A stretch of DNA of 64,000 bases from NCBI GenBank assembly GCA_903863255.1, contig CAIPBJ010000077.1:1-64000 (forward strand), given 5' to 3'. Each line of letters starts with the position of its first letter. The stretch's first letter is position 1. The position numbers and the translations under genes were made by a program. Source of the stretch: an uncultured Methylophilaceae bacterium (lineage in GTDB: Bacteria; Pseudomonadota; Gammaproteobacteria; Burkholderiales; Methylophilaceae). The notes beneath the pieces were generated by a model. The model ran no database searches and was not told where the DNA came from. It saw nothing but the letters and a program-made list of their open reading frames with translations. This document shows, one piece after another, positions 2,308-18,093 of the stretch.

Positions 2308-2324
2308 AGCCTCTCCCTAGTTAG

Positions 2325-2951
2325 TTAATTCCATGCACAACGAACTTTCATTCCAACACGATGCATTGTTTCTTGAGAGATTCCACTAGAAAATGCAAAA
2401 TAATCGTCCTTACCTAAAATCCAGGTATGGAACCTCTGGCCAACGGTAAAGTCACCAAAATCCTTGTCCACAATGTTTTCTTTAATCAAATGTTCGATCG
2501 ACATTTGTCTTGTAAGAGGGGGTTGAGATTTAATTAAGATCAGCTGTTCAGCATTAAGTTTGGATGCGAGCCAAGCAGCCAGACTGTCCGAAGTGACATC
2601 CCAAGACTTGGGTATTTTATCGTCTGAAATAACCATCTTAGATGGAAGCCAAACAATTGCCCTGTGTTGCCAGCCTCTCTCGGCAATTTCAAGTTCGGAT
2701 TCAGCTGTAACCAACGAGGGATTGAGGTCGGCCATCAGGATCCCATACTGATCCATTGCCATTACAGCCATCCTATGTGCTGCAGAATCGCTCAGGTTGA
2801 CTTGTTTCTGGGCACGCCTAACTGCATCGGCAAATATTCCACCCCCAGGAACCAATATAACTTTCCCATCCCCGTACCGTGCAAACACATCAAGCCAATG
2901 AATTAACTCTTCAGATCCAAGAAGACTACCCCCGATTTTGATTACCCACAT
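2325..2951 (-). CDS. Amino-acid-kinase-fold protein, MfnE-like (methylotroph orf19)
   Basis: A kinase of 208 residues of the amino acid kinase superfamily. It starts with WVIKIGGSLL, the phosphate-binding loop, and has VILVPGGGIFAD near residue 32 and a DVTSDSLAAWLA segment near 118. Methylotroph clusters carry this gene as orf19 (COG2054). The archaeal homologue MfnE makes the pyrophosphorylated aminomethylfuran unit of methanofuran. By context (with MfnD- and MfnF-like genes upstream) it should phosphorylate the furan precursor of methylofuran. Similarity to uridylate or glutamate kinase is only at fold level. It starts ten bases after pabB ends. Confidence 0.82.
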   Translation of the reverse strand: MWVIKIGGSLLGSEELIHWLDVFARYGDGKVILVPGGGIFADAVRRAQKQVNLSDSAAHRMAVMAMDQYGILMADLNPSLVTAESELEIAERGWQHRAIVWLPSKMVISDDKIPKSWDVTSDSLAAWLASKLNAEQLILIKSQPPLTRQMSIEHLIKENIVDKDFGDFTVGQRFHTWILGKDDYFAFSSGISQETMHRVGMKVRCAWN

Positions 2952-2960
2952 AGATATTAC

Positions 2961-4340
2961 CTATATCTGTTTACTAAAATGTCGGATTAGTTCAAGCATG
3001 GAAGAAGCTTTATCCCATGTTTCCATATACTCCTTTTGCAATTCTGAGTCAGCTACAATGCCGCCACCTGCATAAAAACGAATTTCATTATTAGAGTATA
3101 TTGCTGTTCGAATAGCAATGTTCGTATCCATGTTTCCATCGAACCCAATATACCCAATTGCGCCACAGTATACGCCTCTTCGATTAGGCTCCAGTTCTTC
3201 GATAATTTGCATTGCTCTAAGTTTAGGCGCCCCGGTAATTGAGCCTCCAGGGAAACATCCTCTTAAGAGGTCTAAAGATGTCTTATCAGCCATTAGCTCG
3301 CCTTTAACAGTACTAACCAGATGATGAACATTTGCAAAACTTTCCAGCTTGAACAAACTCTCGGTAATAACCGACCCTGTTTTACAGCTTTTGCCAATAT
3401 CGTTTCTTAGCAAATCGACAATCATGACATTTTCAGCTTGATCTTTTAAACTGCTTAGCAATTCATTAGCATTCTTTGCATCTTGCTCGCTATCATCCGA
3501 ACGTGGCCTAGTCCCCTTGATGGGGCGAGTCTCGACCCGGTTTCCCTTGACTTGAAGAAATCGCTCAGGAGATGCTGAAAGGATTTCAAATGTTGGGAAC
3601 TTCAAATAGGCGAGAAACGGAGCAGGACTGATTTCCCTAAGGTACCGATAAGCAACCCAACCACACCCCTCAGCTTTTGCTGAGAATCTCTGTGCCAGAT
3701 TAACTTGATAACAATCCCCTTCAACAATGTAATCTTTAATTTTTTGAAAGGCTTTTTTATAACTGGTCAAATTCATATTCGATTTAACCTTTGATGTTAT
3801 TTGAAAGGTTAGCGAACTTTTCTTATGGCCATCAGAAATCCCACCAAACAAATTACAAAGTGCTTCCCATTTATTATGGGTTTTTGGATCGAACCCATGA
3901 GAAACGATCCATGCACTCCTTTTTAAATGATCTACAACTACCACCCAATCGTAAACGCCAATCATCATTTCTGGAATGTCCTCATGCTTCATTCCATTTG
4001 AAGGTACATTTTCTATTCTTCCTGATAGGTCATATGCAAAATAACCAATGGCACCTCCTTCAAATGGAAAAGTTGTCTCCCTTATTTGATATGAGGCTAA
4101 TATTCTTTTTAGTACACTAAAAGGATCTTCATCAGTCGTATCAACACTGTCGTCATGTACAACCTCTGTTCTATTATCAATAGAAGAAACCTTTATGAAT
4201 GGATCAGCTGCAATTATGTCATATCGTCCATATTGGCTTCCAGGATGGCCGCTATCTAAAAAAACCGCCCATGGCCTATCGTGAATAAGTGAAAAAAGTT
4301 TAGAACTGTCAGAAAAGTACGGTATTTCTGATTTAAGCAT
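2961..4340 (-). CDS. pabB: Aminodeoxychorismate synthase component I PabB
   Basis: A chorismate-utilising enzyme of 459 residues that aminates chorismate to 4-amino-4-deoxychorismate, the source of p-aminobenzoate. The motif PIKGTRPR at about 273-280, with lysine 275, is diagnostic of PabB; anthranilate synthase has PIAGT there. The GGGIVADS and CFPGGSITGAPK motifs of the chorismate-binding domain are also present. It sits inside the cofactor operon, with its ATG directly next to the orf20 stop. That makes sense because MptG (15528-16526) consumes p-aminobenzoate for methanopterin, in addition to folate synthesis. The amidotransferase partner PabA and the lyase PabC are not in the window. Confidence 0.93.
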   Translation of the reverse strand: MLKSEIPYFSDSSKLFSLIHDRPWAVFLDSGHPGSQYGRYDIIAADPFIKVSSIDNRTEVVHDDSVDTTDEDPFSVLKRILASYQIRETTFPFEGGAIGYFAYDLSGRIENVPSNGMKHEDIPEMMIGVYDWVVVVDHLKRSAWIVSHGFDPKTHNKWEALCNLFGGISDGHKKSSLTFQITSKVKSNMNLTSYKKAFQKIKDYIVEGDCYQVNLAQRFSAKAEGCGWVAYRYLREISPAPFLAYLKFPTFEILSASPERFLQVKGNRVETRPIKGTRPRSDDSEQDAKNANELLSSLKDQAENVMIVDLLRNDIGKSCKTGSVITESLFKLESFANVHHLVSTVKGELMADKTSLDLLRGCFPGGSITGAPKLRAMQIIEELEPNRRGVYCGAIGYIGFDGNMDTNIAIRTAIYSNNEIRFYAGGGIVADSELQKEYMETWDKASSMLELIRHFSKQI

Positions 4341-5396
4341 TTAGTTATCAATTACTAAAGAAGCTAATGCATAGGCAGGGAAACAAGCACTTGACCAACT
4401 ACTTAAACGTTTATCGTCACTTTTAACAAGATTGGAAACATTCATATAAGGCAAGCCAATCTGCTTGGCTAATGATTCAACAACAAAAGCACCAACTCCT
4501 GCACCTATTAAGGGTATTGGTTCTCGAGATGAAGTTCTGGACAAATGAAGCAGCGAGGTCCTTCTTAATTGTTCAAATTGAATACCTCGAAAATACCTTG
4601 CAAGGTCTTTCCATTTCTCCATGGGAACATCTTCAAAGTCGTGTCCAATCATCCTTGCAAGTCTTCTAGCAGAGGATTCGGAGGACTTATTCGTACCATC
4701 AGCGGTTTCACACATATCATAACTTGCATCCAACTCACCCGTTAATCGGTAAATATCTGCAGTTGTAGCAAAATATTCTGAAACTATATTCGTCCATTTA
4801 CCTAAAAAAGGCACTTTTCCTCCGAACGTCATTAACGGCGTTCTGACGACGCCTGTATAAATTAATTCTTCAGTTTCCAATCGTTCAGCATCCGAGAAAC
4901 CCATAACCTTTGTTTGACTATTCTCTATTAGAATGAAATCCGATGTTGTGCTCCCAATATCTATAAATAAGCCATGGCTTATTTTTTTTGCAAGATAAGA
5001 AGCACTGGCTAGCCAATTTGCTGAAGCAATGGATTTTGTTTTATATGGAACGTCCGCAATCGCTACCAGCCCTTCAAGTCCAGCATAGAAACGTATTTTG
5101 CCTTCAAGTAATTGGCTCACCATGTCCGCAATCATCAAAACGCCTTCACTTCTGTCATTAAAGATATCGACTAGCTCTCCTGTCATGGTAATAACATGGG
5201 ATTGAGGTAAGCAGTTAATCTGATCCAGGATAGTCTGGATCGCCTTACCTAAATTATCGATCCCTTTCCAAAGGGGGCACGATACCTGCCTAACCTCCAG
5301 CACAATACCATCTTTATCTACTAACGCAGCCTTGACATGTGCCCCACCTAAATCCCAACCAAGAACATAACCTAACATGGCATATTGATTATTCAT
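4341..5396 (-). CDS. H4MPT-linked C1 pathway protein, MfnF-like (orf20)
   Basis: A protein of 351 residues with an actin-like/hydantoinase-type ATPase fold. Phosphate-1 motif GWDLGGAHVKAA lies at about 13-24 and phosphate-2 motif DIGSTTSDF at 146-154. It corresponds to orf20 of methylotroph clusters (COG1548). The archaeal homologue MfnF joins the furan pyrophosphate to gamma-glutamyl-tyramine, giving the methanofuran core. The start overlaps the end of orf21 by eight bases and its stop abuts pabB, so translational coupling is likely. The bacterial activity has to be inferred from the archaeal enzyme. Confidence 0.85.
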   Translation of the reverse strand: MNNQYAMLGYVLGWDLGGAHVKAALVDKDGIVLEVRQVSCPLWKGIDNLGKAIQTILDQINCLPQSHVITMTGELVDIFNDRSEGVLMIADMVSQLLEGKIRFYAGLEGLVAIADVPYKTKSIASANWLASASYLAKKISHGLFIDIGSTTSDFILIENSQTKVMGFSDAERLETEELIYTGVVRTPLMTFGGKVPFLGKWTNIVSEYFATTADIYRLTGELDASYDMCETADGTNKSSESSARRLARMIGHDFEDVPMEKWKDLARYFRGIQFEQLRRTSLLHLSRTSSREPIPLIGAGVGAFVVESLAKQIGLPYMNVSNLVKSDDKRLSSWSSACFPAYALASLVIDN

Positions 5397-6393
5397 CGAT
5401 GATTACATTTTCAATTAAACGAGGCAGTTCAGGCATTTTAAATACCTTATTATAGAACAACTCTGGAAACATGAATTCCAGAATCAATTTAGCAGGATTC
5501 ATACCTAAAGCCTGATTCAAACCCACATAGGAGGTGGTTATTCGTGGATTAATCTCTAAAAAGTGATATTCCTTATTTTTCACCATAAGATCAATGCCAA
5601 CATAACCTGCAAGCCCGGGAAATAATTCGACTATCTTTTTTACGAAGCATTCAAAATTGTCCCAATGCTCACTTAAGCCATTTACTATGCTACCTTGATA
5701 TTTAAAATAATTGTCTGCTAGGGATACTTTTTGTAAATTACAAGACAATAAATGGAAGGATCCATGATTACACATTATGGAAACACTTGCAGGCTGACCA
5801 TGAAGAAATCGTTGAAAGACATGTGTAAATTCTCGTCCTTCACTTAGCCATCTTTTCAACTCTGCATACGATTGAAAATATCGACTATCCTCACAACCTG
5901 CCCCATCATCCAATTTACCAACCCATCCCTCTTCATCATAAATATAGGGATTATCCAAGTACTTATATGTTGGATTAGAGTTAAATCCAGCATCTTTCAA
6001 ATAATTGTATGTGGCGTATTTACTAGAGGTAATTCGAATTGTGTCTGCACCACTCCCAATTAGAATTTTTCCATTTTTTTCAATTAGCTCGGTTAATTGC
6101 AATAATATGCCATGTGTTTCAGGTGCAACTGGCCAAACAGCGTCCGAATTGACTATACAATCTTCCCAGATTTTCCAAACGTTATCTCCTGAATATATAG
6201 GGATAGATTCACTAACATAGCTAGACTGTTTTAACCTCGAATCATGCGTAGTAAAGATCTGGAAATTTGGAATCTCTGACAAATCACGCAATAAAGATTC
6301 GCTCATTAAATAGCCTTCCTGGAAAAGGCCTGAATTTAAAATATCCCCGCGCATCCCACCTGCAGTGATAAACTCACATACAAATATTCTCAA
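5389..6393 (-). CDS. ATP-grasp ligase, MfnD-like (orf21)
   Basis: An ATP-grasp enzyme of 334 residues (COG1821 type). It starts MRIFVCEFITAGGM, has WVGKLDDGAGCED near the middle and the metal-binding FLEINPRITTSYVG motif near residue 277. Archaeal MfnD ligates glutamate to tyramine in methanofuran synthesis, so this is the probable tyramine or aryl-amine glutamate ligase for methylofuran. It is the first gene of the minus-strand operon. The start is TTG at 6393; no ATG is available in the frame nearby. It is only 17 bases from the divergent ATG of orf22. Confidence 0.83.
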   Translation of the reverse strand: MRIFVCEFITAGGMRGDILNSGLFQEGYLMSESLLRDLSEIPNFQIFTTHDSRLKQSSYVSESIPIYSGDNVWKIWEDCIVNSDAVWPVAPETHGILLQLTELIEKNGKILIGSGADTIRITSSKYATYNYLKDAGFNSNPTYKYLDNPYIYDEEGWVGKLDDGAGCEDSRYFQSYAELKRWLSEGREFTHVFQRFLHGQPASVSIMCNHGSFHLLSCNLQKVSLADNYFKYQGSIVNGLSEHWDNFECFVKKIVELFPGLAGYVGIDLMVKNKEYHFLEINPRITTSYVGLNQALGMNPAKLILEFMFPELFYNKVFKMPELPRLIENVIIDE

Positions 6394-6410
6394 GCTATAC
6401 TTTCTTAAAT

Positions 6411-7118
6411 ATGGAAATTATTCCAGTAATTGATTTATTGAATGGACAAGTTGTCCATGCCAAATTGGGAGACCGTCAAAACTACAAACCCATTTGTTCG
6501 TCACTGTGCAAATCAAGCAAAATCTCTGAAGTAATTGAATCCATTAAAAATCTATATGCATTCACTAACATTTATGTTGCTGATATCGATGCAATACAAG
6601 AAAAAGGTAGCCATTTAAAAGAAATATCGGAAATTAGGAGAAATTGGCCGGATATCAATATTTGGTTGGATGCAGGTGTCACTACCTCTAAGCATATTAT
6701 AGAACTTCAGGATCAGGGTATCAATATTGTCCTTGGAACTGAAAGTATCATAAATTTAAGTCAATACTCGGAATTGGCCTCGGCTTCAGAAAACGATCAT
6801 ATTTTATCGTTGGACTTTCGAAACAACGCATACACTGGACCTATAGAGCTAGTTGAAACCAATAATCACTGGCCTAACCTGACAATTATAATGTCGTTAA
6901 ATAAAGTTGGCAGTAATGAAGGACCGGATTTGCATAGACTGAAAGAACTAAAAATAATAGCCCAAAAAAGACGTATCTATGCCGCAGGCGGAATAAGAGA
7001 TTTGAACGATTTGAAAAAACTGAAATCCATCGGGGTACATGGTGTGCTCATAGCCAGTTCTCTTCACAATGGCATGATTAACGCAAAAGACATCCATTTT
7101 GCTTTCAACCAATTGTAG
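6411..7118 (+). CDS. HisA-like TIM-barrel protein of H4MPT/methylofuran clusters (orf22)
   Basis: A (beta/alpha)8 protein of 235 residues related to phosphoribosylformimino-AICAR isomerase. It starts MEIIPVIDLLNGQVVHAKLGDR, has NIYVADIDAI and WLDAGVTT strands, and a C-terminal AAGGIRD phosphate-binding loop. It belongs to the COG1411 subgroup found with methanofuran/methanopterin genes (orf22), not to the histidine operon: no other his pathway genes surround it apart from a distant hisC. The HisA fold suggests an isomerisation of a phosphorylated sugar or aminosugar intermediate, but I know of no established reaction. It is transcribed away from orf21, and its stop is followed by a strong inverted repeat. 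Confidence 0.82.
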   Translation: MEIIPVIDLLNGQVVHAKLGDRQNYKPICSSLCKSSKISEVIESIKNLYAFTNIYVADIDAIQEKGSHLKEISEIRRNWPDINIWLDAGVTTSKHIIELQDQGINIVLGTESIINLSQYSELASASENDHILSLDFRNNAYTGPIELVETNNHWPNLTIIMSLNKVGSNEGPDLHRLKELKIIAQKRRIYAAGGIRDLNDLKKLKSIGVHGVLIASSLHNGMINAKDIHFAFNQL

Positions 7119-7153
7119 ATAGAATTCAGATACATTCATTTAAATTAACGAAA

Positions 7154-7188
7154 TTAATGCACCCTTGAATTTCCTAAGGGTGCATTAA
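7154..7188. terminator. Bidirectional terminator between orf22 and fae
   Basis: A perfect 13-bp inverted repeat (7154-7166 and 7176-7188) with a 9-base loop lies in the 131-base gap between the convergent stops of orf22 and fae. On the minus strand the stem is followed by a T-rich stretch, so it probably ends fae transcription. In the other direction the T-tract is weak. Confidence 0.75.
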
Positions 7189-7249
7189 CTTAATCATCAA
7201 CCAATAACTAAATTGTAACTGACTGAATTAGAGTGCTGGGATATAAAAT

Positions 7250-7789
7250 CTAGTTCTTTGCGGCAAAAGGATGAGCTGTTTCTTTGTATGTTTTCACCAC
7301 ATCGGCCACTTTTGGTTCACGCGCAATTGCATTTTTCAATGCTTGCTTAGTAGCGCGGTAATTCCAATCCTGAATACGTTCATCAATATCAGCGCGACTA
7401 TCGATAAAGACACCAACACAAATGAAAACATTATCTGCTTCATCTTGCGGAATTGTTCCATCAGCCACGCAATCCATCACTGCCATGGCTACGCCTCTTT
7501 GAGCTGGACCAAACATTTGAACAGCTTGGCGACCGTTTTTAATCGTTACTTTATTAAACATGACAGTAGCAGGCTTAACCATCATATTAGGAGCAACAAT
7601 AGCCAGCAAGCCATTAACACCAAATTTTTGATCCGTTAATGTTCTACAGAATGCATCTTCTGCAGCACTTCCACGTGGCCCTAAAATCAAGTCAATATGC
7701 GCAACGTTAAGCAAGTCCAATCCACTGTGATCAGGACGCTCTTCAATAACAAGTGCCTCACCTACTAATACACGATCAATGACAGCCAT
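7250..7789 (-). CDS. fae: Formaldehyde-activating enzyme Fae
   Basis: Fae condenses formaldehyde with tetrahydromethanopterin to give methylene-H4MPT in the cytoplasm. The protein of 179 residues shows the family core VAHIDLILGPRG (catalytic histidine 31), LLAIVAPNMMVKP, FNKVTI and AVQMFGPAQRGVAMAV, ending HPFAAKN. A longer frame begins with TTG at 7801. I choose the ATG at 7789 because a GGAG sits at 7796-7799, seven bases ahead of it, and family members begin MAxI. The gene stands alone between terminators, with a structured leader, as suits a very abundant protein. Confidence 0.97.
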   Translation of the reverse strand: MAVIDRVLVGEALVIEERPDHSGLDLLNVAHIDLILGPRGSAAEDAFCRTLTDQKFGVNGLLAIVAPNMMVKPATVMFNKVTIKNGRQAVQMFGPAQRGVAMAVMDCVADGTIPQDEADNVFICVGVFIDSRADIDERIQDWNYRATKQALKNAIAREPKVADVVKTYKETAHPFAAKN

Positions 7790-8138
7790 TTTTTTCTCCA
7801 AATATCAAAGTTTCCGCGGAAACAAATAAGTACCACTTTATTAGTGGCACCAGCCTAACAAACGTCTGTTGGACGTATAAACTTAGAACGGATGACAGTT
7901 TATCTCATTAAACAAGCGTTTTGCTATACAAATTCACCTTCATAAAAATATGTATGAACCGATTCTGAAATATAGCTTGTTATTAAACTTCCAAATGATG
8001 AATAAATGCTATTTTTACAATTCAATTCATCAGATAAAAAACAAATAAATGCTAGCGCCTTTTGATTACAATAATTTTAAACCGCAGCTAATATACTGAT
8101 TAATCATTCAATTAATACTGCGGTCTCAAACTTTCGAC
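7790..8138 (-). promoter_or_regulatory. Long structured upstream region of fae
   Basis: This gene-free stretch of 349 bases holds the fae promoter and leader and the end of phi. Close to fae, in the transcribed direction, are three successive hairpins: GACGT/ACGTC arms with a five-base loop (about 7862-7876), an eight-bp stem with arms around CCACT/AGTGG (about 7830-7850) and a perfect 14-bp palindrome at 7810-7823 only about ten bases before the GGAG. No clean sigma70 -35/-10 pair was found by eye. The part near 8081-8124 is the phi terminator listed separately. Confidence 0.5.
8081..8124 (-). terminator. Terminator-like hairpin after phi
   Basis: Arms ACCGCAG (8081-8087) and CTGCGGT (8118-8124) enclose a 30-base loop that can itself fold (ATTAA/TTAAT). 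In the phi direction the stem is followed by an AT-rich TTTAAAATTATT stretch. The long loop makes this a weaker terminator than the others. Confidence 0.5.
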
Positions 8139-8675
8139 TTATTCCAAATTAGCGTGAATTGCTCGCATTCCCTCTTCGGTAAGTCCCTTTGCATGGATCA
8201 ACTCAGAGATAGCAGCCTCAAGAAATATCAATGTTGATAATTCAAATTGAGAACCCATCGGCATACCTTTTGTAAGCGGAAAACTATCATCTTGCCCAAT
8301 TTGAACCACTAAGTCTGCCATATCAGCCATTGCAGAAGACTTTTTCATTGAAATCACAGCAAGTTTAGCACCGACAGATTTTGCTTTCTTCACTAAAGGC
8401 AACAGAGTTTCGGTTCCTCCTGAACCCGAAATCATTATTAATAGGTCTCCAGATTTGATCGCAGGGGTAACAACTTCACCCACCATACTCACATTGTATC
8501 CAGAGTGAACTAAACGCATAGCAAAGAATCTTGAGACCAATCCTGATCTGCCTGCTCCACCAATGAAAGTTCGATTGGCCTTTGCTACTAAATCGAGCAA
8601 TTCTGATGATTTATTCTTATCTGTAACTGCCAAGATGCCTGACAATTTATCCAAAATCAATTTTTGATGATCCAT
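8139..8675 (-). CDS. hxlB: 6-phospho-3-hexuloisomerase Phi (HxlB)
   Basis: A SIS-domain isomerase of 178 residues that converts hexulose 6-phosphate to fructose 6-phosphate in the ribulose monophosphate cycle. Visible motifs are FIGGAGRSGLVSRFFAMRL at about 37-55, the SIS signature LIMISGSGGTETLLPL near 84-99 and a C-terminal helix ending GMRAIHANLE. It follows hps on the same strand but is separated from it by an intrinsic terminator at 8705-8740, leaving only about 30 bases before its ATG. It is therefore probably expressed by read-through at a lower level than hps. Confidence 0.95.
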   Translation of the reverse strand: MDHQKLILDKLSGILAVTDKNKSSELLDLVAKANRTFIGGAGRSGLVSRFFAMRLVHSGYNVSMVGEVVTPAIKSGDLLIMISGSGGTETLLPLVKKAKSVGAKLAVISMKKSSAMADMADLVVQIGQDDSFPLTKGMPMGSQFELSTLIFLEAAISELIHAKGLTEEGMRAIHANLE

Positions 8676-8704
8676 AATTTTTCCTTAAGCGATGTACGAG
8701 CATT

Positions 8705-8740
8705 GTAAAAAAACCCCGACTCATTTCTGAATCGGGGTTT
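8705..8740 (-). terminator. Intrinsic terminator between hps and phi
   Basis: A perfect nine-bp stem AAACCCCGA/TCGGGGTTT (8711-8719 and 8732-8740) with a 12-base loop. On the minus strand it is followed directly by a run of T. This is a textbook rho-independent terminator for hps transcripts, placed upstream of phi. Confidence 0.9.
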
Positions 8741-8794
8741 GATATCTTCACTATAAATTCTTAGCCATTAAAAGCGCCGAGAACCTATTTCGAA

Positions 8795-9430
8795 TTAAGC
8801 AGCGTGAGCGATAGCAGTGATTTCTGCAGCTGAAGCAGCTGGGTCAGCCGCACCGTAAATAGCAGCACCGGCAACGATGATTGTCGCACCAGCATCACGT
8901 ACTTGAGCAGTAGTTCCAGCTTTAACACCACCAGCTACAGAGATATCAACACCAAGGCCTAGGCTTGCAACCAAACCTAAGTCAGCAAAAGGAGTTTGTC
9001 CAGCAGCTTGTTGGTCAAGACCAGTATGAACACCAATGATATGTGCACCTAGCTTAGCAACTTCTTGTGTACGCGCTTTTTTATCAGCAACATTAATTAA
9101 GTCAACTTGAGCCTTTTTGCCGTACTTGTTAGCAACATCGATTACACCTTTGATTGTACCGATATCTGCACAACCCAATACTGTACAGATGTCAGCACCA
9201 GCTTTGTAGAATGGCTCAGCTTCGTAGAAACCAGCGTCCATAGTTTTCAAATCAACTAAGATTTTGTTATTTGGGAATTTAGCACGAAGCGTTTCAAGCA
9301 ATTTAATACCATTGTGCTTAATGCAAGGTGTTCCAATTTCAAGGATGTCAACGTGTGGAGCAACTGTTGTTGCTAGTGCCACTGTTGCATCAAAATCCAA
9401 TGAGTCTAAAGCCATTTGTGTTAATGCCAT
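8795..9430 (-). CDS. hxlA: 3-hexulose-6-phosphate synthase Hps (HxlA)
   Basis: An enzyme of 211 residues of the orotidine monophosphate decarboxylase superfamily. It adds formaldehyde to ribulose 5-phosphate, the fixation step of the RuMP cycle. The superfamily motif DLKTMD is present at 60-65 (Asp60, Lys62, Asp65), with EIGTPCIKHNG at 31-41 and the phosphate loop ISVAGGVKAGT near 164-174. A GGAGG sits seven bases before the ATG. A consensus-like promoter lies 70-100 bases upstream. Adjacent phi and transaldolase complete the local RuMP set. Confidence 0.97.
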   Translation of the reverse strand: MALTQMALDSLDFDATVALATTVAPHVDILEIGTPCIKHNGIKLLETLRAKFPNNKILVDLKTMDAGFYEAEPFYKAGADICTVLGCADIGTIKGVIDVANKYGKKAQVDLINVADKKARTQEVAKLGAHIIGVHTGLDQQAAGQTPFADLGLVASLGLGVDISVAGGVKAGTTAQVRDAGATIIVAGAAIYGAADPAASAAEITAIAHAA

Positions 9431-9498
9431 GATACTTCCTCCGATTAATTACAGGTTATTACTACTTTATGAATACTACTTACAAAAGAAAGCGTAAT

Positions 9499-9526
9499 CT
9501 TATAGTGCTTATAAGACCCATGTCAA
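9499..9526 (-). promoter_or_regulatory. Sigma70-type promoter of hps with overlapping palindrome
   Basis: On the minus strand, a perfect -35 TTGACA (9521-9526) is followed after 16 bases by a -10 TATAAG (9499-9504), with transcription expected near 9491. A 17-base inverted repeat, CTTATA-5-TATAAG (9499-9515), covers the -10 and part of the spacer, as an operator would. Confidence 0.75.
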
Positions 9527-9558
9527 CGCTCACAACCAGTAAAATGATTATGAGCGTG
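9525..9558 (-). terminator. Hairpin after transaldolase gene
   Basis: Arms ACGCTCA/TGAGCGT (9526-9532 and 9551-9557) enclose a second short pairing (AATCA/TGGTT with one wobble), giving a long imperfect hairpin 17 bases after the tal stop. There is no T-run after it. Its far arm abuts the -35 element of the hps promoter, so the site may insulate hps from tal transcription. Confidence 0.45.
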
Positions 9559-9575
9559 GACGAAAATAAAGTTAA

Positions 9576-10526
9576 TTAAAGCTTAGCTGAAAGGGCTACT
9601 TCCAATTTATTCTGGTCGACTACAAACCCGCGAATTCCTTCCGCAAGCTTTTCAGTAGCCATTGCATCTTCATTCAATGCAAATCGGAATTCTCCCTCAG
9701 TCATTTTTGCTGGTGGGGTTGATTTAGCTCCGTTGTCTGCCAACATGCGTGGCAGGTTGCCTTGAGTTGATTCAAGCTCCTGCAAAAGATTAGGCGCAAT
9801 TGTTAAACGATCACATCCAGCAAGTGCAGTTACTTCACCAATATTTCTGAATGAAGCGCCCATAACAACCGTTTTGTAACCATGCTCTTTATAATAAGCA
9901 TAGATTTTACGAACTGACAGAACACCCGGATCGGTTTCAGAAGTATAGGTTTCACCGGTTTTTGCTTTATACCAGTCAAGAATACGACCAACGAAAGGTG
10001 AAATCAAGAAAACGCCAGCTTCAGCACAAGCTCTTGCCTGACCGAATCCAAACAACAAAGTAAGATTACAGTTAATGCCTTCTTTTTCAAGTATCTCACC
10101 AGCTTTAATACCTTCCCAAGTAGAAGCAAGCTTAATTAACACGCGATCATTTTTAATTCCTGCATCGTTGTATAGCTTGATTAGCTTGCGTCCCTTGTTA
10201 ACCATTGCATCAATATTAAAAGATAAACGCGCGTCTACTTCTGTTGATATTCTGCCAGGGATATGTTTTAAAATTTCCAATCCGACTAGAACTGCCAACT
10301 TGTCAGCCGCATCTTCTATTTGCTTTGCCTTGTCGTTACTTTGGGATTTGGCATAGGAAATCGCCTCAGCAATCATTGGTTCGCACTGTGGAAGTAAGCT
10401 TGCTTTCAATAGCAAAGATGGATTGGTTGTTGCATCATATGGCTTAACCGATTTAATTGCTTCGACATCACCCGTATCAGCCACGATGGTAGTCATGGTC
10501 TTCAATTGTTCTAATAAACTAGCCAT
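9576..10526 (-). CDS. tal: Transaldolase
   Basis: Class I transaldolase of 316 residues, which exchanges dihydroxyacetone units between sugar phosphates and regenerates ribulose 5-phosphate in the RuMP cycle. The Schiff-base lysine is in [10 protein letters not shown] (Lys132 with the chosen start, matching E. coli numbering). [13 protein letters not shown] near 30-42 and [11 protein letters not shown] are also typical. The frame extends to a TTG at 10538, but GGAGG at 10532-10536 lies inside that extension, five bases before the ATG at 10526, so 10526 is the start. It lies between the cofactor genes and hps. Confidence 0.96.
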
Positions 10527-10699
10527 TGCATCCTCCAAATATTTACTAAATTAAGATTTAAAAAATGAAATTATCATATTTTAACGAGTGGAGTGACTTC
10601 TTATCCGAGCTAAAGTCACATACCTAAATTAACCTTCGAATGAGGTTCGGAGTATAACTTAATTTACACGTAAACTGAATTGATCATGAAAGAATATGA

Positions 10700-11560
10700 T
10701 TAATTCTGATCATTCTTATTGTTTAACATGCCTATATTGGATACTAACAAGGTCGCTACAACCAAGTCAGCACTTGTACCAGGATTCACTCCCTCGTCCT
10801 TCAATCTTTTATCCCATGCCAATAATTCAGATTGGTAAATTTTAGGGTTGTCTAATTGCCCAAAGACCTGCTCATGAATCTTCGCTTCTTCCTGAAGCGC
10901 CAAGGCCCGATCCAGACCTAACTTCCTTGTAACGTGAGTGTCGGGAAAACATGCCATGTAAGACAAATACAATTTAGTGATTGCCCATGCGGATTTATTC
11001 CATTTTGATAGGTAGCGCCTGTATTCAATTAATCCAAAATCAAACACATCCGCAAAGCAATTTGAATATTGTTTGGCAATCATGTCACGACTTTCTGAAA
11101 TCTTCATAGCCTCTAACAAGCTAATAGATGGCGTTTCGTTGACATCTTGCTTGTTTGATTCCCCAAGCCCAGCTGGCGAAGCCATCCTTATTCCCCGATA
11201 GGTAAGAATGGAATCGGTTACGGTAAGCTCGGTGAGAACCTGATTTAGATTTTTTCGGATGTCGAGATGATTAAGCTTAAAAGCAGCTTCTATAATTGGA
11301 GCTGAAAGTAATATTATCCCCAGGTTGGTGTTGCAGCCAACGGCATTCCAAGTTTCAGTTACTGAATTAAGAACGCGCTCCCCTACTGAATATCCAGCTT
11401 TTGAAATTGGGATCGATGCAACCTCCGCACTCTTGACAAAATCCTGTACGACCATCCCATGGCCATCGGCAAAAATATGGACGTTCCCAGGTTTTAGCGC
11501 AGTGAGCTCCATTAGGCAAGCATCCTTGAAGCAGATTGACAGCCTCTCGCTCAGGCTCAT
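10700..11560 (-). CDS. CitG/MdcB-like ribosyltransferase-family protein (methylotroph orf5)
   Basis: A protein of 286 residues from the triphosphoribosyl-dephospho-CoA synthase family (COG1767). Visible motifs are the N-terminal ACLMELTALKPGNVHIFADGHG, LGIILLSAPIIEAA near 80-93, and the C-terminal KDEGVNPGTSADLVVATLL. CitG itself makes the prosthetic group of citrate lyase, but no lyase genes are present. In methylotrophs this gene is orf5 of the H4MPT cluster and is needed for, or linked to, cofactor synthesis. CitG chemistry builds an alpha-ribosyl ether, which suggests a role in attaching the ribose of methanopterin; that is inference. It overlaps orf7 by four bases. Confidence 0.82.
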   Translation of the reverse strand: MSLSERLSICFKDACLMELTALKPGNVHIFADGHGMVVQDFVKSAEVASIPISKAGYSVGERVLNSVTETWNAVGCNTNLGIILLSAPIIEAAFKLNHLDIRKNLNQVLTELTVTDSILTYRGIRMASPAGLGESNKQDVNETPSISLLEAMKISESRDMIAKQYSNCFADVFDFGLIEYRRYLSKWNKSAWAITKLYLSYMACFPDTHVTRKLGLDRALALQEEAKIHEQVFGQLDNPKIYQSELLAWDKRLKDEGVNPGTSADLVVATLLVSNIGMLNNKNDQN

Positions 11561-12453
11561 ATATTTGACTTTGAAAGAACGTCATCAACCAATGCTTGAG
11601 CGATATCTATCTCCAATACGCTTTGAATTCCCTTCCATGCCGGTATGCTGTTTACCTCAAGAACATACAGCTTACCTTCAACACTTCGAATGACATCCAC
11701 ACCGCAGTAATCAATATTCAATGCTTTCGAAGCTGCTTCAGAAATTTCGGCAATTTCAGCGTAATCCGCGACGACTTCGCAACGCCCACCTTTTGCAACA
11801 TTATTAATCCAAGAGTTTCCTCTCCTGACCATTGCCCCAATTGCCTTGCCATTTATAACGAAAACACGATGGTCATGCCAATTATTTTCCCCACTATCAA
11901 TGTATTTCTGGAAATAATAAAGTCCATCTACGAATTCATCGCCAGGCAAAGGAAAAGGTAAACCCTTTGATAACAACCGGACTCCTTCGCCTTGAGAGCC
12001 AAATAACGGCTTGATAACCAAGTGCTCTTCATTTAACAAATTCTCTCTGATGATGCTGTGAGCCTGATTGCGTGATTCAAGTACCCAGGTTTCAGGTGTA
12101 GGGATATTGTTAAAATGCATCAAGAAACTAGTCATGGCTTTGTCGACAGTATGTTCTATCGAAATAGCATCATTATAAACTTTCACGCCTAACATCTTTA
12201 GCGCATGTAAAATGTCCAGCCTTGAAATGACTTGTTGCAAACTGCCGCCAGGCACCCCCCTGACAAAGGCTATCGGAGGCAATTGGTCTTGAAATCCCGG
12301 TATGAAAACACAAGGTTTTTGGGAACTCAAATGAAAATGACAATCTTTAAGCGAACAAAATACTGATTGGAACCCCCGAACATTAAACGCTTCTTTCAGG
12401 CGTTTCCCATGCCAGCCAGGATCATCAGTAAAAACAACAACGCTTCTATTCAA
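11557..12453 (-). CDS. RimK-type ATP-grasp ligase (methylotroph orf7)
   Basis: A protein of 298 residues with an ATP-grasp fold. HLVIKPLFGSQGEGVRLL near 144-161 is the ATP-binding glycine loop, and LYVLEVNSIPAWKGIQ near 267-282 is the metal-binding end of the active site. RimK relatives ligate glutamate to proteins or cofactors (MptN and CofF in archaea). It lies between mch and orf5, 14 bases after mch, in the H4MPT cluster (orf7, COG0189). A glutamate ligase acting on methanopterin or on the polyglutamate tail of methylofuran is the plausible role; the substrate is unknown to me. Confidence 0.82.
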   Translation of the reverse strand: MNRSVVVFTDDPGWHGKRLKEAFNVRGFQSVFCSLKDCHFHLSSQKPCVFIPGFQDQLPPIAFVRGVPGGSLQQVISRLDILHALKMLGVKVYNDAISIEHTVDKAMTSFLMHFNNIPTPETWVLESRNQAHSIIRENLLNEEHLVIKPLFGSQGEGVRLLSKGLPFPLPGDEFVDGLYYFQKYIDSGENNWHDHRVFVINGKAIGAMVRRGNSWINNVAKGGRCEVVADYAEIAEISEAASKALNIDYCGVDVIRSVEGKLYVLEVNSIPAWKGIQSVLEIDIAQALVDDVLSKSNI

Positions 12454-12467
12454 TCAGTGAACCTAAT

Positions 12468-13451
12468 TCAGAATCCAAAAGATTGATCGAGCAATGCAGC
12501 ATCCAATGCCCCTCCAAAATATGACTTGCCAGAATCCAAAGCAGTCACAGTTACTGCAGCAGGACTGAAAAGCATAGGATCAATTTTATAAAAATCCATC
12601 TTTACACTTTTAAAAATATCGGAAAAGGGCCTTCCATAGTCACGAGAAGAACTACTTGGTAGTTCTTTTGCAAGTTTTGCTGCATTTTCATCGCTTCCTC
12701 TAACGAAGATATGCGCATGGCCACCAAAAAGTATCGCGTCGTTGGTTCTTCCCATTCCAGTGAGAAAATCAGGGGAAGGTGGAGGAACAGGCGCACTGGC
12801 CATTCCGTCTACAACATCGCCCAACGGAAAATGCAGCGCATGGATTTTATGCATTGCGACTTCTAGAACTCGAGCCACGATCTGAATTGTCCCTGCCAGG
12901 CTTCGAGTCGGGGTTAGAATAAAAGTAAGATTCTCATTTGATATCTTTGTATCATGAGCAACCTTTTCAATCACTTCTCTAGGAGGGATCTTCTCACTTT
13001 CAAGAATTAAACAAGCGGAATCTGCACTATCTTGATACATCAGTTCTTTAAATAATTCCTCTTTGTTCGCGATAGCTCGACACGGACCCGAGCCTAAGGA
13101 GAAGAACTTGTCATGAGACAAACTCCAGCCAGCATACTGACTTCCAAGACATGATAAAACTGGATTACTTGAATGCACTGAGAGCATCCATGGCCAGTTC
13201 TTAAAGGTTAATGAAGTTTGAACGGAGACATGTCCGAGGCCTCCCATACAAATTTCAGCAATGAGTCTTCCAGCTTCTATGCCACCAAGACTATTGATAC
13301 CCGCATCAATGATAGTGGCTCCTGTTTCATGCTTAATCAATCCCAAACGCAATTCATCAGCTTTACTTATAAATTCCTTGACCAATGGATTCGCAAGGCG
13401 GTTGACACTAGGCCATTCCTTGACATTACTTGAATTTAAATTAGTATCCAT
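12468..13451 (-). CDS. mch: Methenyltetrahydromethanopterin cyclohydrolase
   Basis: Mch hydrolyses methenyl-H4MPT to N5-formyl-H4MPT, between MtdB and the Fhc complex, in the cytoplasm. The protein has 327 residues, as usual. Characteristic stretches are IDAGINSLGGIEAGRLIAEICMGG early on, CLGSQYAGWSL, GSGPCRA near the middle, and TGMGRTNDAILFGGHAHIFVRG toward the C-terminus. It lies 13 bases downstream of orf17 and 14 upstream of orf7, in one minus-strand operon. Confidence 0.96.
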   Translation of the reverse strand: MDTNLNSSNVKEWPSVNRLANPLVKEFISKADELRLGLIKHETGATIIDAGINSLGGIEAGRLIAEICMGGLGHVSVQTSLTFKNWPWMLSVHSSNPVLSCLGSQYAGWSLSHDKFFSLGSGPCRAIANKEELFKELMYQDSADSACLILESEKIPPREVIEKVAHDTKISNENLTFILTPTRSLAGTIQIVARVLEVAMHKIHALHFPLGDVVDGMASAPVPPPSPDFLTGMGRTNDAILFGGHAHIFVRGSDENAAKLAKELPSSSSRDYGRPFSDIFKSVKMDFYKIDPMLFSPAAVTVTALDSGKSYFGGALDAALLDQSFGF

Positions 13452-13464
13452 GGCATCCTTTTTT

Positions 13465-14565
13465 TCATATCTTTAATAAAATACACAGTTCTTTAAGTCT
13501 TTTCTTGATTAAATCACATGCCAGTTCAGCTTTCTCGGCATCTGCCAATATCGTGCAAACAGGTTGATTCTTTGGGATATCACTGTTTGGCAATGGAATG
13601 TCAGCTATCCATTCAGGCCATTGGGTATGACTTGGAATCTTCAAATCCAAAGGTGCATAAAAAACCTGTCTCGCCTTAGATCGCTTCGAAATCATAGGAA
13701 ACTCATTTAAGGTTCCTTGGCAGGCTTGAATATGCAGGTCAAACAAATTGACATCGGGAGTCTGATATAAATCAAATGTGGAACTCAATCGAGGATTGAT
13801 CTCCAAGATCCAAATATTATCCTCATTCACAATTGCATCAAGACTATTTAATCCTACCAACCCCACTTCATTCGTTATTTTCTTTGCAATGTGAAAAAGC
13901 CGTTCCTTTGAACTATCTTGCAAATCAGCATTTCCTACAATACCTCCATACCGGTATGGCTTTTCCGGTATAGGCGAAACCCACTGCTGATTAAATCCAA
14001 TCTCTCTAATGTTTTTTCCATCTGAAACAAAAAGCATGGAGACTGGGGTGCCTTCAGTTGCTTTTTGAAAATACAACCCTTCAGCTAACAACTCGCCTGA
14101 ACTAGCCGAAACGACATGCGTTCCACCTGAACCTCCGTCTTCCTTTCGAAGCCAGCCATTGGCATTTGTTAGGGGCTTGAAACTTACTTCAGGATGAGGA
14201 ATATCCAACATATCAAGCAAAACAAAAAAGTCCCTTGCCCGTTTGATTCGTTTAACGACATCTGGTCTATTGCCGATAATCGGTAATATTTCGGCGACTC
14301 GTTGAAGAAGTTCAGGTTGTGCTTCAAATCCGCTTCCATAAACGAACCCATGAACGTCTTTTAAATCAATTTGCTTAATTATTTCCAGAAACTGCCTCGG
14401 CTCGAAACCGCTATCCGCATAACTTACCTTGAATACTTCAGATGCTGCGCGTTGCGTGTCTGCGTCTGCAAAAACATCAATGGCAACAACATCGTATCCC
14501 GCCATGGATGCTGCCTTAACAAAGGGTCTAGCAGAAACTGCCGCTATAATTACTTTTTTAATCAT
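13465..14565 (-). CDS. ATP-grasp protein of the H4MPT cluster (orf17)
   Basis: A protein of 366 residues with an N-terminal nucleotide-binding half that begins KKVIIAAVSARPFVKAA and an ATP-grasp half. GWLRKEDGGSGGTHV near 133-147 is the glycine-rich loop and WILEINPRLSSTFDLY near 253-268 the metal site. It matches orf17 (COG2232) of methylotroph clusters. A carboxylate-amine ligation in methanopterin or methylofuran synthesis is expected, but I know of no assigned reaction. It sits between mtdB and mch. Confidence 0.82.
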   Translation of the reverse strand: MIKKVIIAAVSARPFVKAASMAGYDVVAIDVFADADTQRAASEVFKVSYADSGFEPRQFLEIIKQIDLKDVHGFVYGSGFEAQPELLQRVAEILPIIGNRPDVVKRIKRARDFFVLLDMLDIPHPEVSFKPLTNANGWLRKEDGGSGGTHVVSASSGELLAEGLYFQKATEGTPVSMLFVSDGKNIREIGFNQQWVSPIPEKPYRYGGIVGNADLQDSSKERLFHIAKKITNEVGLVGLNSLDAIVNEDNIWILEINPRLSSTFDLYQTPDVNLFDLHIQACQGTLNEFPMISKRSKARQVFYAPLDLKIPSHTQWPEWIADIPLPNSDIPKNQPVCTILADAEKAELACDLIKKRLKELCILLKI

Positions 14566-14589: not shown

Positions 14590-15483
14590 TTATAAACTTT
14601 CTCTAGCCATTTCAAAGGCCGAGAGAAAATCAAGGTAAAGTCTATTTTGAGAAGACAGCATCTGTTTTAATAGATTATGCTGAGTAATATATTTAACGTT
14701 TCCGATGCAAAGCGCTCCTATTCCAAACGCCGAAGTACCTTGTATGGCAATGCCATCCGCATTAACATCAACCCCTTCAGCGCCAGTAGGCGGAACAGCA
14801 TTTACATCAGCAACAATTTTCAGGTTTTTGGACAACGCCATCTGCTCAAGTGAAAGTACACGTACTCCAGCCGCTGCAGCACATAAAGCAATCTCTGTAT
14901 TTTCGAGGACTTCAATCTTTAACTCATTTGTACTTCCGTCAGCATATCCGACTTCAATGCCGTACCGTTTGCTATATGCTTCGGCCCGAATTTGAACATC
15001 GACCAGGGAGCGATGGGCGACAAGCTTCACGTTTGCGCCATATTTTGCTGCTATTACCGCAGTGCATCCACCTACTGGGCCGGTTGCACCAAAAATACTG
15101 ACATTTTTTCCAGTCAGGTCACCACCAAAATTTTTTGTAAGATGCTGTTCAACCTTGGCCATCATACCGGCTGCGGTTGTGAATGCTCCTGAAGGATCAG
15201 CAAAAACAGAAACCTCAAATGGCGGAACCATGGATTTCTTTGCAGTTTCCAGCATATCCATTGCTATATCTATGTCTCGACCACCAATAAAAATGTGCTC
15301 ACGCTTCACCCCACTTGGCCCACGAGAAAAAATGGCATCTTGAACCAAAGCTGTGACTTCCTTCAATTCTATGTTTGTGTAAGGCATTATCTTGTCGAAT
15401 CCAGCATCGTAAGCCATATTGACATCGAATGGACTGGCATTTTTTGCTGCAGTGATCAAATGTAGAATCGAAACCTTTTGCAT
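14590..15483 (-). CDS. mtdB: NAD(P)-dependent methylene-H4MPT dehydrogenase MtdB
   Basis: MtdB oxidises methylene-H4MPT, the product of Fae, to methenyl-H4MPT. The protein of 297 residues has the N-terminal HLITAAKNASPFDVNMAYDAG typical of the MtdA/MtdB family, and a Rossmann motif FGATGPVGG at about 131-139. The family context (H4MPT genes on both sides, mch downstream) favours MtdB over the folate-specific MtdA. It is 24 bases upstream of orf17 in the operon order and 44 bases after mptG. Confidence 0.93.
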   Translation of the reverse strand: MQKVSILHLITAAKNASPFDVNMAYDAGFDKIMPYTNIELKEVTALVQDAIFSRGPSGVKREHIFIGGRDIDIAMDMLETAKKSMVPPFEVSVFADPSGAFTTAAGMMAKVEQHLTKNFGGDLTGKNVSIFGATGPVGGCTAVIAAKYGANVKLVAHRSLVDVQIRAEAYSKRYGIEVGYADGSTNELKIEVLENTEIALCAAAAGVRVLSLEQMALSKNLKIVADVNAVPPTGAEGVDVNADGIAIQGTSAFGIGALCIGNVKYITQHNLLKQMLSSQNRLYLDFLSAFEMARESL

Positions 15484-15527: not shown

Positions 15528-16526
15528 CTAATTAATTATATTTACAATGGCACCCTTATTGCGTGCTTTAACCAATTTAAATTCCAGGGAATGCACATGC
15601 TCGAAATGGACCCTTAGAGTATTCATGGCATGACCTGCTTCATTTTCATCGGCAAAAATCGCAAATCCTGTAGGCCCCCAGGAACTCTGACCATAACAAA
15701 AACATCCCTGCTTCCTTAACCATTCGATTACCAAACCGACTTTAGAGCTAGCGTAACGACCTCCCTGAACCTGAGAAAAATAATCTCCTGTTTTTTCCTG
15801 AAGGAGTGTTATTGCTGATCCAAACAACTTAAGGTCCTTTTCAATCAAGGCTGGAAGTGCCTGCATTAAAATTGCTCTGCATAAATCCGAAGATACTTCA
15901 GACGGAAAAACCGGTAAGGAACGGAATGCCTGTTTCTCTTGTTCGCCATGAACGCCCGTATGAGAATGATCAAAGATTAAAACGATTCGCCACTCTTCAG
16001 GAAAATCCAGCCTAGAGATAATAGGGGGGAGAATAGTAGAGGCTCCCCGTCCCCCATCCACAACGACGCCACCTAACTGGAAGGTACCGACGCCAATTCC
16101 GGATCTAGCACCACGGTCAGTAATCACTGCCAATTCCTCAAGTGATGTATTTAAGTTAAATAGTTTACATATGGAATAACCAATTGCTAAAGACAATTGC
16201 GTCCCCGATCCCAGTCCGGAATGCTTAGGGATAGAACTTCTTAGCTGTATATGAACACCCTTCTCCAGATTCAGGAGCTTGCAGATGCTTACTGCAATTT
16301 TCAACGCTCGTTCTGAATCTGGGCCTTCAGTTGTGATTTCTTCTGATTCCGCTGCACAAACCTCAGTTACAGGTTGATCCAGGGAGAGTCCTATGCTCCC
16401 AAAACATCTGCCCAGGGCTCCATTTAAATCAAAAAATCCCATATGCAACCTGGCAGTCGTTGAAACTGCTACGGTCTTTTCTATATTTAACGCGCCATCT
16501 GCGGTCTCAATATAAATCTCTGACAT
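15528..16526 (-). CDS. mptG: Beta-ribofuranosylaminobenzene 5'-phosphate synthase (orf4)
   Basis: This GHMP-kinase-superfamily enzyme of 332 residues condenses p-aminobenzoate with phosphoribosyl pyrophosphate and loses CO2, the first committed step toward methanopterin. It shows TARLHMGFFDLNGALGR near 24-40, the GHMP glycine motif PKHSGLGSGTQ at 100-110, and GVGTFQLGGVVVDGG further on, as in archaeal and methylotroph enzymes. It is the first gene of the mptG-mtdB-orf17-mch-orf7-orf5 operon and diverges from fhcB across 248 bases. pabB at 2961-4340 supplies its substrate. Confidence 0.93.
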   Translation of the reverse strand: MSEIYIETADGALNIEKTVAVSTTARLHMGFFDLNGALGRCFGSIGLSLDQPVTEVCAAESEEITTEGPDSERALKIAVSICKLLNLEKGVHIQLRSSIPKHSGLGSGTQLSLAIGYSICKLFNLNTSLEELAVITDRGARSGIGVGTFQLGGVVVDGGRGASTILPPIISRLDFPEEWRIVLIFDHSHTGVHGEQEKQAFRSLPVFPSEVSSDLCRAILMQALPALIEKDLKLFGSAITLLQEKTGDYFSQVQGGRYASSKVGLVIEWLRKQGCFCYGQSSWGPTGFAIFADENEAGHAMNTLRVHFEHVHSLEFKLVKARNKGAIVNIIN

Positions 16527-16774: not shown

Positions 16775-18058
16775 ATGGAAAAAGAATCTAGAATAACCAC
16801 TTATAATTCAGTAACTTGCCCAGCATGTAGTCTTTTATGCGATGACTTAAATGTAATGTCGGATGCTGCTGGCGGTTCAATCAAGATGCTTGAAAACGGA
16901 TGTTCTCGCAGCATCAAGTTTTTTGAGCATACCTTGAATTCAATTGAACCCAGGTTAGAGGGACAAAAAACCAATCTTGATAATGCCATCTCTCACGCAA
17001 CAAAACTAATTAAGGCAAGCAATCACACTCTTATTTCAGGACTTGCAGTTGATGTTCATGGGATGCGATCCATCCTGTCTCTAGCAGATAAAATTGGTGC
17101 GTCCCTCGATCACATGAACTCTTCTGCCATGTTGAGAAATACACTTGTAGTACAAAATTCGGGTTGGCAGGTCTGCACATTGACTGAAGTAAGGAACCGT
17201 GTTGACCTATTGCTCGTGATTGGAACAGATATAGTCAGCATTTATCCCCGATTCTTTGAGAAGGTAGTATGGATTGATGAAATCATGTTTGATCAGGACA
17301 TATCAAATCGAGAAATTGTTTATATTGGTGGTAAGGATTTAAATACAGATTCAGGAATGTCGAAAAATGGCAAGAAACCAACCGTAATCTCATGCGAAAA
17401 TACCGATTTACCCGAAGTGACCAATGCAATTAGAGCGTTGGTACAAGGTAAAAGCGTATCCTCTGAGAAAGTCGGAGGAATCGCTGTTAGCGACCTAAAA
17501 CAACTGGCTGAACGACTCATTGCGTCAAAATACAGCGTAATTACATGGGCAACCAGTACCTTTGACTTCCCTCATGCAGAACTAACCGTACAGAACATAA
17601 CGGAAACCATTAATTTTCTTAATCGAAAAACTCGATGTTCAGGTCTTCCTCTGGCAGGTAACGAAGGTGATGTTACGGCTAATCAAGTATCAACCTGGAT
17701 AAGTGGCTACCCTATTCGAAATTCGTTTATACATGGATACCCTGAATACTCTCCCTATCAATTCAACACCCCTGAACTGTTATCAAATGGTGAAGCAGAT
17801 ATTTTGATTTGGGTGAATACGTTAAATCCTGATCGACTGCCTCCTTCGTGCGACATTCCAACGATAGTTTTTGGTCATCCTGACATGAAGTTCAATAAAG
17901 AGCCCGATCTATTTATTCCAGTTGGGGTGCCTGGCATTGATCATACAGGTACGATGTTCCGATGTGATAATGTGGTTTCGCTTCAATTAAAAAAAATCAG
18001 GGAGTCGAAATTGCCTACATTGCAATCCGTTGTTTCATCCATCGAAAGTAGCTTATAA
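16775..18058 (+). CDS. fhcB: Formyltransferase/hydrolase complex subunit FhcB
   Basis: A protein of 427 residues homologous to the molybdopterin/tungstopterin subunit of archaeal formylmethanofuran dehydrogenase. In methylotrophs FhcB is thought to be a structural subunit of the hydrolytic complex, since formate is released without redox. The N-terminus keeps CPACSLLC (Cys15, 18, 22) with Cys43 downstream, the spacing of an FeS ligand set in the archaeal protein. It is the first gene of fhcBADC and 35 bases precede fhcA. Confidence 0.93.
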   Translation: MEKESRITTYNSVTCPACSLLCDDLNVMSDAAGGSIKMLENGCSRSIKFFEHTLNSIEPRLEGQKTNLDNAISHATKLIKASNHTLISGLAVDVHGMRSILSLADKIGASLDHMNSSAMLRNTLVVQNSGWQVCTLTEVRNRVDLLLVIGTDIVSIYPRFFEKVVWIDEIMFDQDISNREIVYIGGKDLNTDSGMSKNGKKPTVISCENTDLPEVTNAIRALVQGKSVSSEKVGGIAVSDLKQLAERLIASKYSVITWATSTFDFPHAELTVQNITETINFLNRKTRCSGLPLAGNEGDVTANQVSTWISGYPIRNSFIHGYPEYSPYQFNTPELLSNGEADILIWVNTLNPDRLPPSCDIPTIVFGHPDMKFNKEPDLFIPVGVPGIDHTGTMFRCDNVVSLQLKKIRESKLPTLQSVVSSIESSL

Positions 18059-18093
18059 ATAAGTAACTACGTTAATGCTCTAAGGAATAAAAA

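Follow-up and report, generated by a model that had tools for sequence, protein, structure and literature searches.

The window, i.e., the whole stretch of 64,000 nucleotides that was analysed (contig CAIPBJ010000077.1, from an uncultured Methylophilaceae bacterium), carries an island of tetrahydromethanopterin (H4MPT) genes. Within it lies an open reading frame for 286 amino acids with an ATG start, orf5, at positions 10700–11560 of the minus strand. The initial annotation had assigned this reading frame to the CitG family, and the profile search agrees, since residues 10–273 of Orf5 match PF01874 (CitG) with 224.2 bits against a cut-off of 27. A profile search of the genome from which the window comes revealed no other gene of this family. 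The gene overlaps by 4 bp that of Orf7, an MptN-like ATP-grasp protein, and is the last of an H4MPT run in the order MptG, MtdB, Orf9, Mch, Orf7 and Orf5. The fhcBADC genes, on the plus strand, point away from this run, and Fae, PabB and methylofuran-like genes are found at 1.9–7.8 kb. The features are as follows:

1936–6393, minus strand: remaining cofactor island, made up of the next five genes
at 1936, minus strand: pterin-4a-carbinolamine dehydratase-like
at 2325, minus strand: amino-acid-kinase/MfnE-like
at 2961, minus strand: PabB
at 4341, minus strand: TIGR03123/MfnF-like
at 5389, minus strand: ATP-grasp, MfnD-like
7250–7801, minus strand: Fae, formaldehyde-activating enzyme (PF08714 and TIGR03126, over cut-off)
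10700–11560, minus strand: Orf5, CitG-like, candidate H4MPT alpha-ribosyltransferase (PF01874; TIGR03125 and TIGR03132 below cut-off; 3h9p fold)
11557–12453, minus strand: Orf7, RimK-type ATP-grasp protein, MptN-like (PF08443; NF040720 MptN at 208 bits, below the cut-off of 350)
12468–13451, minus strand: Mch, methenyl-H4MPT cyclohydrolase (TIGR03120, 401.7 bits, over cut-off)
13465–14565, minus strand: Orf9, ATP-grasp protein (PF02655)
14590–15483, minus strand: MtdB, methylene-H4MPT dehydrogenase (PF09176, 129 bits)
15528–16526, minus strand: MptG, beta-RFAP synthase, catalysing the first committed step towards the H4MPT side chain (TIGR00144, 188.8 bits, cut-off 113.5)
16775–21487, plus strand: fhcB, fhcA, fhcD and fhcC, formyltransferase/hydrolase complex (FhcA TIGR03121, FhcD TIGR03119 and FhcC TIGR03122 over cut-off; FhcB at 310.6 bits, below the TIGR03129 cut-off of 327.8)

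A HisA/HisF-like gene (6411–7118, plus strand; TIGR00734 below cut-off) lies in the same island, on the strand opposite to that of its cofactor-gene neighbours.

The surroundings of orf5 are repeated in other genomes. Eighty loci with Orf5 relatives were fetched, of which 56 are bacterial; within the flank covered, 49 of these 56 carry Mch and 48 carry Orf7, which directly abuts or overlaps orf5 in 42, so that the CitG homologue is indeed fixed in H4MPT clusters, as had been proposed from the window. A DHPS-like pterin-binding gene is present in 37 of the bacterial loci and a DUF447 gene in 32. The latter also abuts or overlaps the CitG gene in all 17 Archaeoglobi loci, and the same holds for 22 of another 30 loci from the Archaeoglobus phylum. 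DUF447 proteins (for example L010:10636-11214 and L093:2379-3005) are flavin-reductase-like and possibly represent a reductase of H4MPT assembly. In 16 of the same 30 loci a gene for a Dus-like protein (for example L093:327-1454 and L102:293-1438) lies directly next to CitG on the same strand; the L093 member, the only one tested, has a 'methanogenesis marker 9' domain.

In the Bathyarchaeota phylum, a nucleotidyltransferase of the GS...SDxD type is encoded near CitG in 15 of 30 loci; this count takes in the L086 locus a second time, as well as one fragment without the motif. Examples are L139:2498-3511, L140:380-1489 and L142:2445-3485, which score over the Pfam cut-off of 21, and the L086 protein (minus strand), which falls just under it with 19.7. 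The L086 locus (Bathyarchaeota RBG_13_60_20) is the clearest cluster, and unites MptG, CitG, Mch and Fhc:

5512–7074, one direction: DHPS-like
7081–8133, same direction: MptG
8031–8678, same direction: DUF447
8718–9722, same direction: nucleotidyltransferase
9755–10717, opposite direction: CitG
12274–13221, opposite direction: Mch
opposite direction: FhcBADC and an Orf7-like gene

The association extends from gene neighbourhoods to gene content. As a yardstick we used RFAP synthase (TIGR00144), and its presence was compared with that of CitG in four genome samples, whose phylum labels were inferred from the phylum of a named locus:

Family of the window, 60 genomes: both genes 50, neither 9, CitG only 1, RFAP synthase only 0
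Archaeoglobus phylum, 146 genomes: both 139, neither 3, CitG only 1, RFAP synthase only 3
Bathyarchaeota phylum, 161 genomes: both 63, neither 79, CitG only 15, RFAP synthase only 4
Planctomycetota, 147 genomes: both 21, neither 125, CitG only 1, RFAP synthase only 0

RFAP synthase is thus found in 50/51, 139/140, 63/78 and 21/22 of the CitG-positive genomes, respectively. RFAP matches were counted at E<=1e-20 in the Bathyarchaeota and Planctomycetota samples, because weaker ones resemble other GHMP kinases; in Planctomycetota the same limit was applied to CitG, and three weak CitG matches (E ~3e-4) were left out. Fisher values range from 1.5e-4 to 5e-25, and are inflated by phylogenetic dependence given that kinship is ignored. 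Among the genomes behind the fetched loci (38 of the 80 loci covered), 37 of 38 were positive for RFAP synthase, 35 of them over the cut-off. In a set of 14 control genomes, RFAP synthase was detected in Methanocaldococcus jannaschii, Haloferax volcanii, Sulfolobus acidocaldarius and Methanosarcina acetivorans. These four archaea were also positive for CitG, as was Escherichia coli, which is negative for RFAP synthase. Physical linkage alone cannot explain this pattern, since CitG and RFAP synthase are 82 kb to 5.7 Mb apart in seven Planctomycetota genomes where a single contig carries the two (at least one further such genome, G533, was left out).

The two genes can also be lost together. In the family of the window, the nine genomes with neither gene and the single CitG-only genome, which is 76% complete and has CitG as a fragment, all lack Mch. 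Three genomes of the Archaeoglobus phylum (G105, G145 and G196) have kept Mch but lack both CitG and RFAP synthase, therefore the pair can be missing jointly while the C1 enzyme stays; these genomes offer a natural test of the roles of CitG and RFAP synthase where the carrier used by Mch is a different one. In this phylum, the three genomes with RFAP synthase alone keep Mch and have no CitG match. S. acidocaldarius has CitG and RFAP synthase and is negative for Mch, and this agrees with the folate analogue of Sulfolobales, which mixes features of tetrahydrofolate and methanopterin according to one report (PMC3261824).

Two observations do not follow this trend. First, 15 of the 78 CitG-positive genomes of the Bathyarchaeota phylum have no detectable RFAP synthase (G236, G287, G335, G341, G365, G377, G393 and eight more), and these count against a strict association; several of them fall within a clade whose other members have RFAP synthase, and some carry the nucleotidyltransferase near CitG. 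Second, H. volcanii gave matches for both genes, and haloarchaea are held to use tetrahydrofolate, the authors of a curated review (PMC8305020) doubting that the RFAP-like protein of Haloferax makes RFAP.

The relationship of Orf5 to the characterized members of its family was addressed by a phylogenetic tree, by conserved residues and by structure prediction. In a tree of 65 of the 157 sequences, obtained by a quick search without bootstrap, with 24 of 62 inner branches open and a root placed on CitG/MdcB by choice, Orf5 and the archaeal proteins are split from CitG/MdcB with 100% SH-aLRT support, and the 21 Orf5 proteins from bacteria group in a single clade (99%) that is embedded among 36 archaeal CitG-like proteins. 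Eight residues (K23, G25, N77, G81, D207, G261, A264 and D265) are invariant in 65 bacterial Orf5, 84 archaeal and eight CitG/MdcB sequences, so the core pattern of CitG/MdcB, i.e., K-x-G, N-x-x-x-G, D and G-x-x-A-D, is kept in Orf5; residues N26, G60, P88, K213 and N259 are common to Orf5 and most archaea and absent from CitG/MdcB. Comparison of the Orf5 profile with that of CitG/MdcB (hhalign) gave a probability of 99.5% over 253 columns. The structure predicted for Orf5 (pLDDT 95.6, pTM 0.94) has a single clear match, 3h9p, with a Z score of 23.2, 2.7 A over 219 residues, the next best having a Z score of 4.4. The predicted secondary structure places all four invariant motifs in loops that precede helices 38–52, 80–94, 208–214 and 261–285, or at the beginning of these helices, and the motifs may thereby sit where phosphates often bind. 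By tree, fold, KPGN motif and the company of RFAP synthase, Orf5 belongs together with 3h9p to an H4MPT-linked, archaeal-type clade of CitG-like proteins.

The list of 50 structure matches for the Orf5 model includes seven entries of ARH3 (Z 2.2–2.7). A kinship with the ADP-ribosylglycohydrolases (ARH/DraG) was a tempting lead because these enzymes cleave alpha-O-ribosides; however, the lead was dropped because profile comparison gave nothing: against an ARH alignment of seven rows, hhalign returned a probability of 0.3% for an Orf5 alignment of 47 members (the window protein and 46 of 72 loci passing a length filter, from the 80 fetched) and of 0.1% for CitG/MdcB. No ARH relatives were found in the viral contigs searched.

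CitG transfers the ribose of ATP, through its C1, to the 2'-hydroxyl of dephospho-CoA, forming an alpha linkage and releasing adenine. Methanopterin bears an alpha-ribofuranosyl unit on ribitol, and the 5-phosphate of this ribosyl is esterified to 2-hydroxyglutarate; Methylobacterium has the dephospho form of H4MPT. Orf5 is a distant relative of CitG and travels with MptG across bacteria and archaea, which makes it the leading candidate for the ribose step, and we consider it probable (roughly two chances in three) that Orf5 is an alpha-ribosyltransferase acting on the ribitol of H4MPT-type coenzymes. Whereas the linkage, the conserved residues and the tree are direct results, we infer the reaction and its place in the pathway, its stereochemistry, and which molecules donate and accept the ribose. 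Orf5 would put the alpha-ribofuranosyl unit on a hydroxyl of ribitol during H4MPT biosynthesis, in bacteria that of the dephospho form. In a CitG-type reaction, the alcohol would attack C1 of a ribosyl donor phosphorylated at its 5-position, and inversion would produce an alpha-O-riboside. With ATP, a beta-N-glycoside from which adenine leaves, the alpha configuration would arise by simple inversion as in CitG, and the resulting triphosphate could then enter a CitX-like transfer to 2-hydroxyglutarate; the alternative donor would be PRPP. The CitG core residues retained in Orf5 are compatible with alpha-ribosyl transfer.

The attachment of the methanopterin ribose by Orf5 had originally been proposed from chemistry. 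This proposal is partly supported: its factual premises hold, the subfamily is tied to H4MPT side-chain assembly, as indicated by the co-occurrence with RFAP synthase in four samples, the shared loss and the archaeal clusters, and the CitG core residues are conserved; the 15 of 161 Bathyarchaeota-phylum genomes with the gene and without detectable RFAP synthase speak against it. The ribose-step reading has therefore moved from a chemistry-based guess to the best-supported candidate. In the literature searched, which left most subscription journals outside and hence makes for a weak negative, no enzyme was named for the methanopterin ribosyl step, and no paper joined CitG or triphosphoribosyl chemistry, or DUF447, with methanopterin.

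There is a bolder, tentative extension of this reading, in which the ribosyl-phosphodiester arm of methanopterin would be built by the logic of the citrate lyase prosthetic group, i.e., by a CitG-type and then a CitX/MdcG-type enzyme; as a whole we regard it as rather unlikely. The archaeal-type CitG (Orf5) would move the 5-triphosphoribosyl of ATP to the ribitol pterin in alpha linkage, with release of adenine, and a nucleotidyltransferase of the CitX/MdcG class would join the alpha-phosphate to 2-hydroxyglutarate, with release of pyrophosphate; bacteria with the dephospho form would run the first step only. In the malonate decarboxylase system, the carrier protein receives phosphoribosyl-dephospho-CoA at a serine through the joint action of MdcB and MdcG (PMC5534430). 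The GS...SDxD nucleotidyltransferase encoded next to CitG in Bathyarchaeota is a candidate for the 2-hydroxyglutaryl phosphodiester step. In a profile alignment with MdcG, its GS...SDxDL stretch was weakly matched over 38 columns with an E value of 0.0022 for this single comparison and a probability of 12.8%, and a GS...DxD regular expression was absent from three CitX proteins and gave no clean match in five MdcG proteins; the link to MdcG is one of broad catalytic class and not of orthology. The tree leaves its root undecided, so CitG and MdcB could have branched off from a methanopterin enzyme.

The first alternative concerns the donor. Orf5 could carry out the same ribosyl step with PRPP, as a phosphoribosyltransferase that has departed from the ATP chemistry of CitG and makes the ribosyl 5-phosphate directly. 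Positions that are constant in the eight CitG/MdcB sequences are changed in Orf5 and in most archaea (L41 to N26, R231 to K213 and S275 to N259, as well as H50), so the site for donor or acceptor has partly changed; furthermore, in the classical cell-extract work of White, the ribosyl source was reportedly PRPP and not ATP. However, PRPP is an alpha-1-diphosphate, so that with simple inversion a beta linkage would be expected in place of the alpha linkage of methanopterin, and the invariant core is common to Orf5 and the ATP-using enzymes. We consider this alternative unlikely, although its chance is appreciable and is shared with the preferred reading, which admits either donor.

Another possibility is that Orf5 acts elsewhere in the assembly of the RFAP-derived side chain, for example on RFAP-pterin before the ribitol is formed, or in the methylofuran branch. 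Co-occurrence and clusters assign Orf5 to the pathway but single out no step within it, and methylofuran-type genes share its island. Nevertheless, the only chemistry known to us for the CitG family is the transfer of a ribosyl to an alcohol, which occurs once in the pathway; the presence of CitG and RFAP synthase without Mch in S. acidocaldarius is in line with a role in making the pterin and not with that of a C1 enzyme. We regard a different step as unlikely.

The last alternative takes Orf5 for an ordinary triphosphoribosyl-dephospho-CoA synthase, serving citrate lyase or malonate decarboxylase, or else an unknown enzyme that carries the same prosthetic group. Orf5 shares PF01874 with CitG, and its relatives carry this product name in database records, such as those of plasmids (H48-H62, for instance). 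Against the equivalog models, however, Orf5 scores 26.5 bits with TIGR03125 (cut-off 272.3) and 19.4 bits with TIGR03132 (cut-off 282.35), about 250 bits short of the CitG and MdcB cut-offs in each case; the best E values of the 47-member alignment with these two models were 7e-18 and 1e-19. The acyl carrier protein CitD/MdcC (PF06857), acceptor of the CitG product, was found in none of the 60 genomes of the family, that of the window included, and E. coli was the sole positive in the control search of 14 genomes. As tested through this acceptor, the initial annotation was right to describe the gene as occurring without citrate or malonate lyase genes. The citG gene of E. coli lies within its citrate lyase operon, and this gene and seven plasmid CitG/MdcB genes all have citX, mdcG or a holo-ACP synthase gene adjacent or one gene away, whereas none of these was present among the window genes scanned around orf5. 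In addition, Phyllobacterium zundukense has, besides its Orf5 relative, a distinct MdcB in an mdc operon. Given the sub-cut-off scores, the lack of PF06857 in 60 genomes and a tree position apart from CitG/MdcB, it is very improbable that Orf5 is such a synthase, and the product name given to its relatives is most likely misleading.

Biological methane formation and much of aerobic methylotrophy rely on methanopterin as the carrier of their carbon. An inventory from 2011 estimated that seven proteins for methanopterin synthesis were still unknown (PMC3087415). For the ribose step there is now a named candidate, with a solved archaeal relative and with relatives in genetically tractable bacteria, which makes an old gap testable; a ribosyltransferase role, if true, would amend the product name in public records.

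With regard to known systems, CitG and MdcB (PF01874; TIGR03125 and TIGR03132) are homologous to Orf5 from end to end and share its invariant core; however, Orf5 is far under their equivalog cut-offs, lies across a branch with 100% support, has other genomic partners and occurs without the carrier-protein acceptor. The motif KPGN of Orf5 is KPGL in CitG/MdcB, and there are other fixed differences. The sole solved relative of Orf5, by sequence and by fold, is 3h9p, a putative triphosphoribosyl-dephospho-CoA synthase from Archaeoglobus fulgidus, which is about 28% identical to Orf5 and whose PDB title gives this homology-based name and no other function; among Archaeoglobi, the close relatives of 3h9p are encoded directly against DUF447, and 16 of the 17 genomes concerned have RFAP synthase. 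With MptG and the known enzymes of the H4MPT side chain, Orf5 shares the pathway, as judged from co-occurrence and clusters. In contrast, MptG belongs to the unrelated GHMP kinase family, and its product, made with PRPP, is a C-riboside; the substrates of RFAP synthase are PRPP and pABA (PMC6787355).
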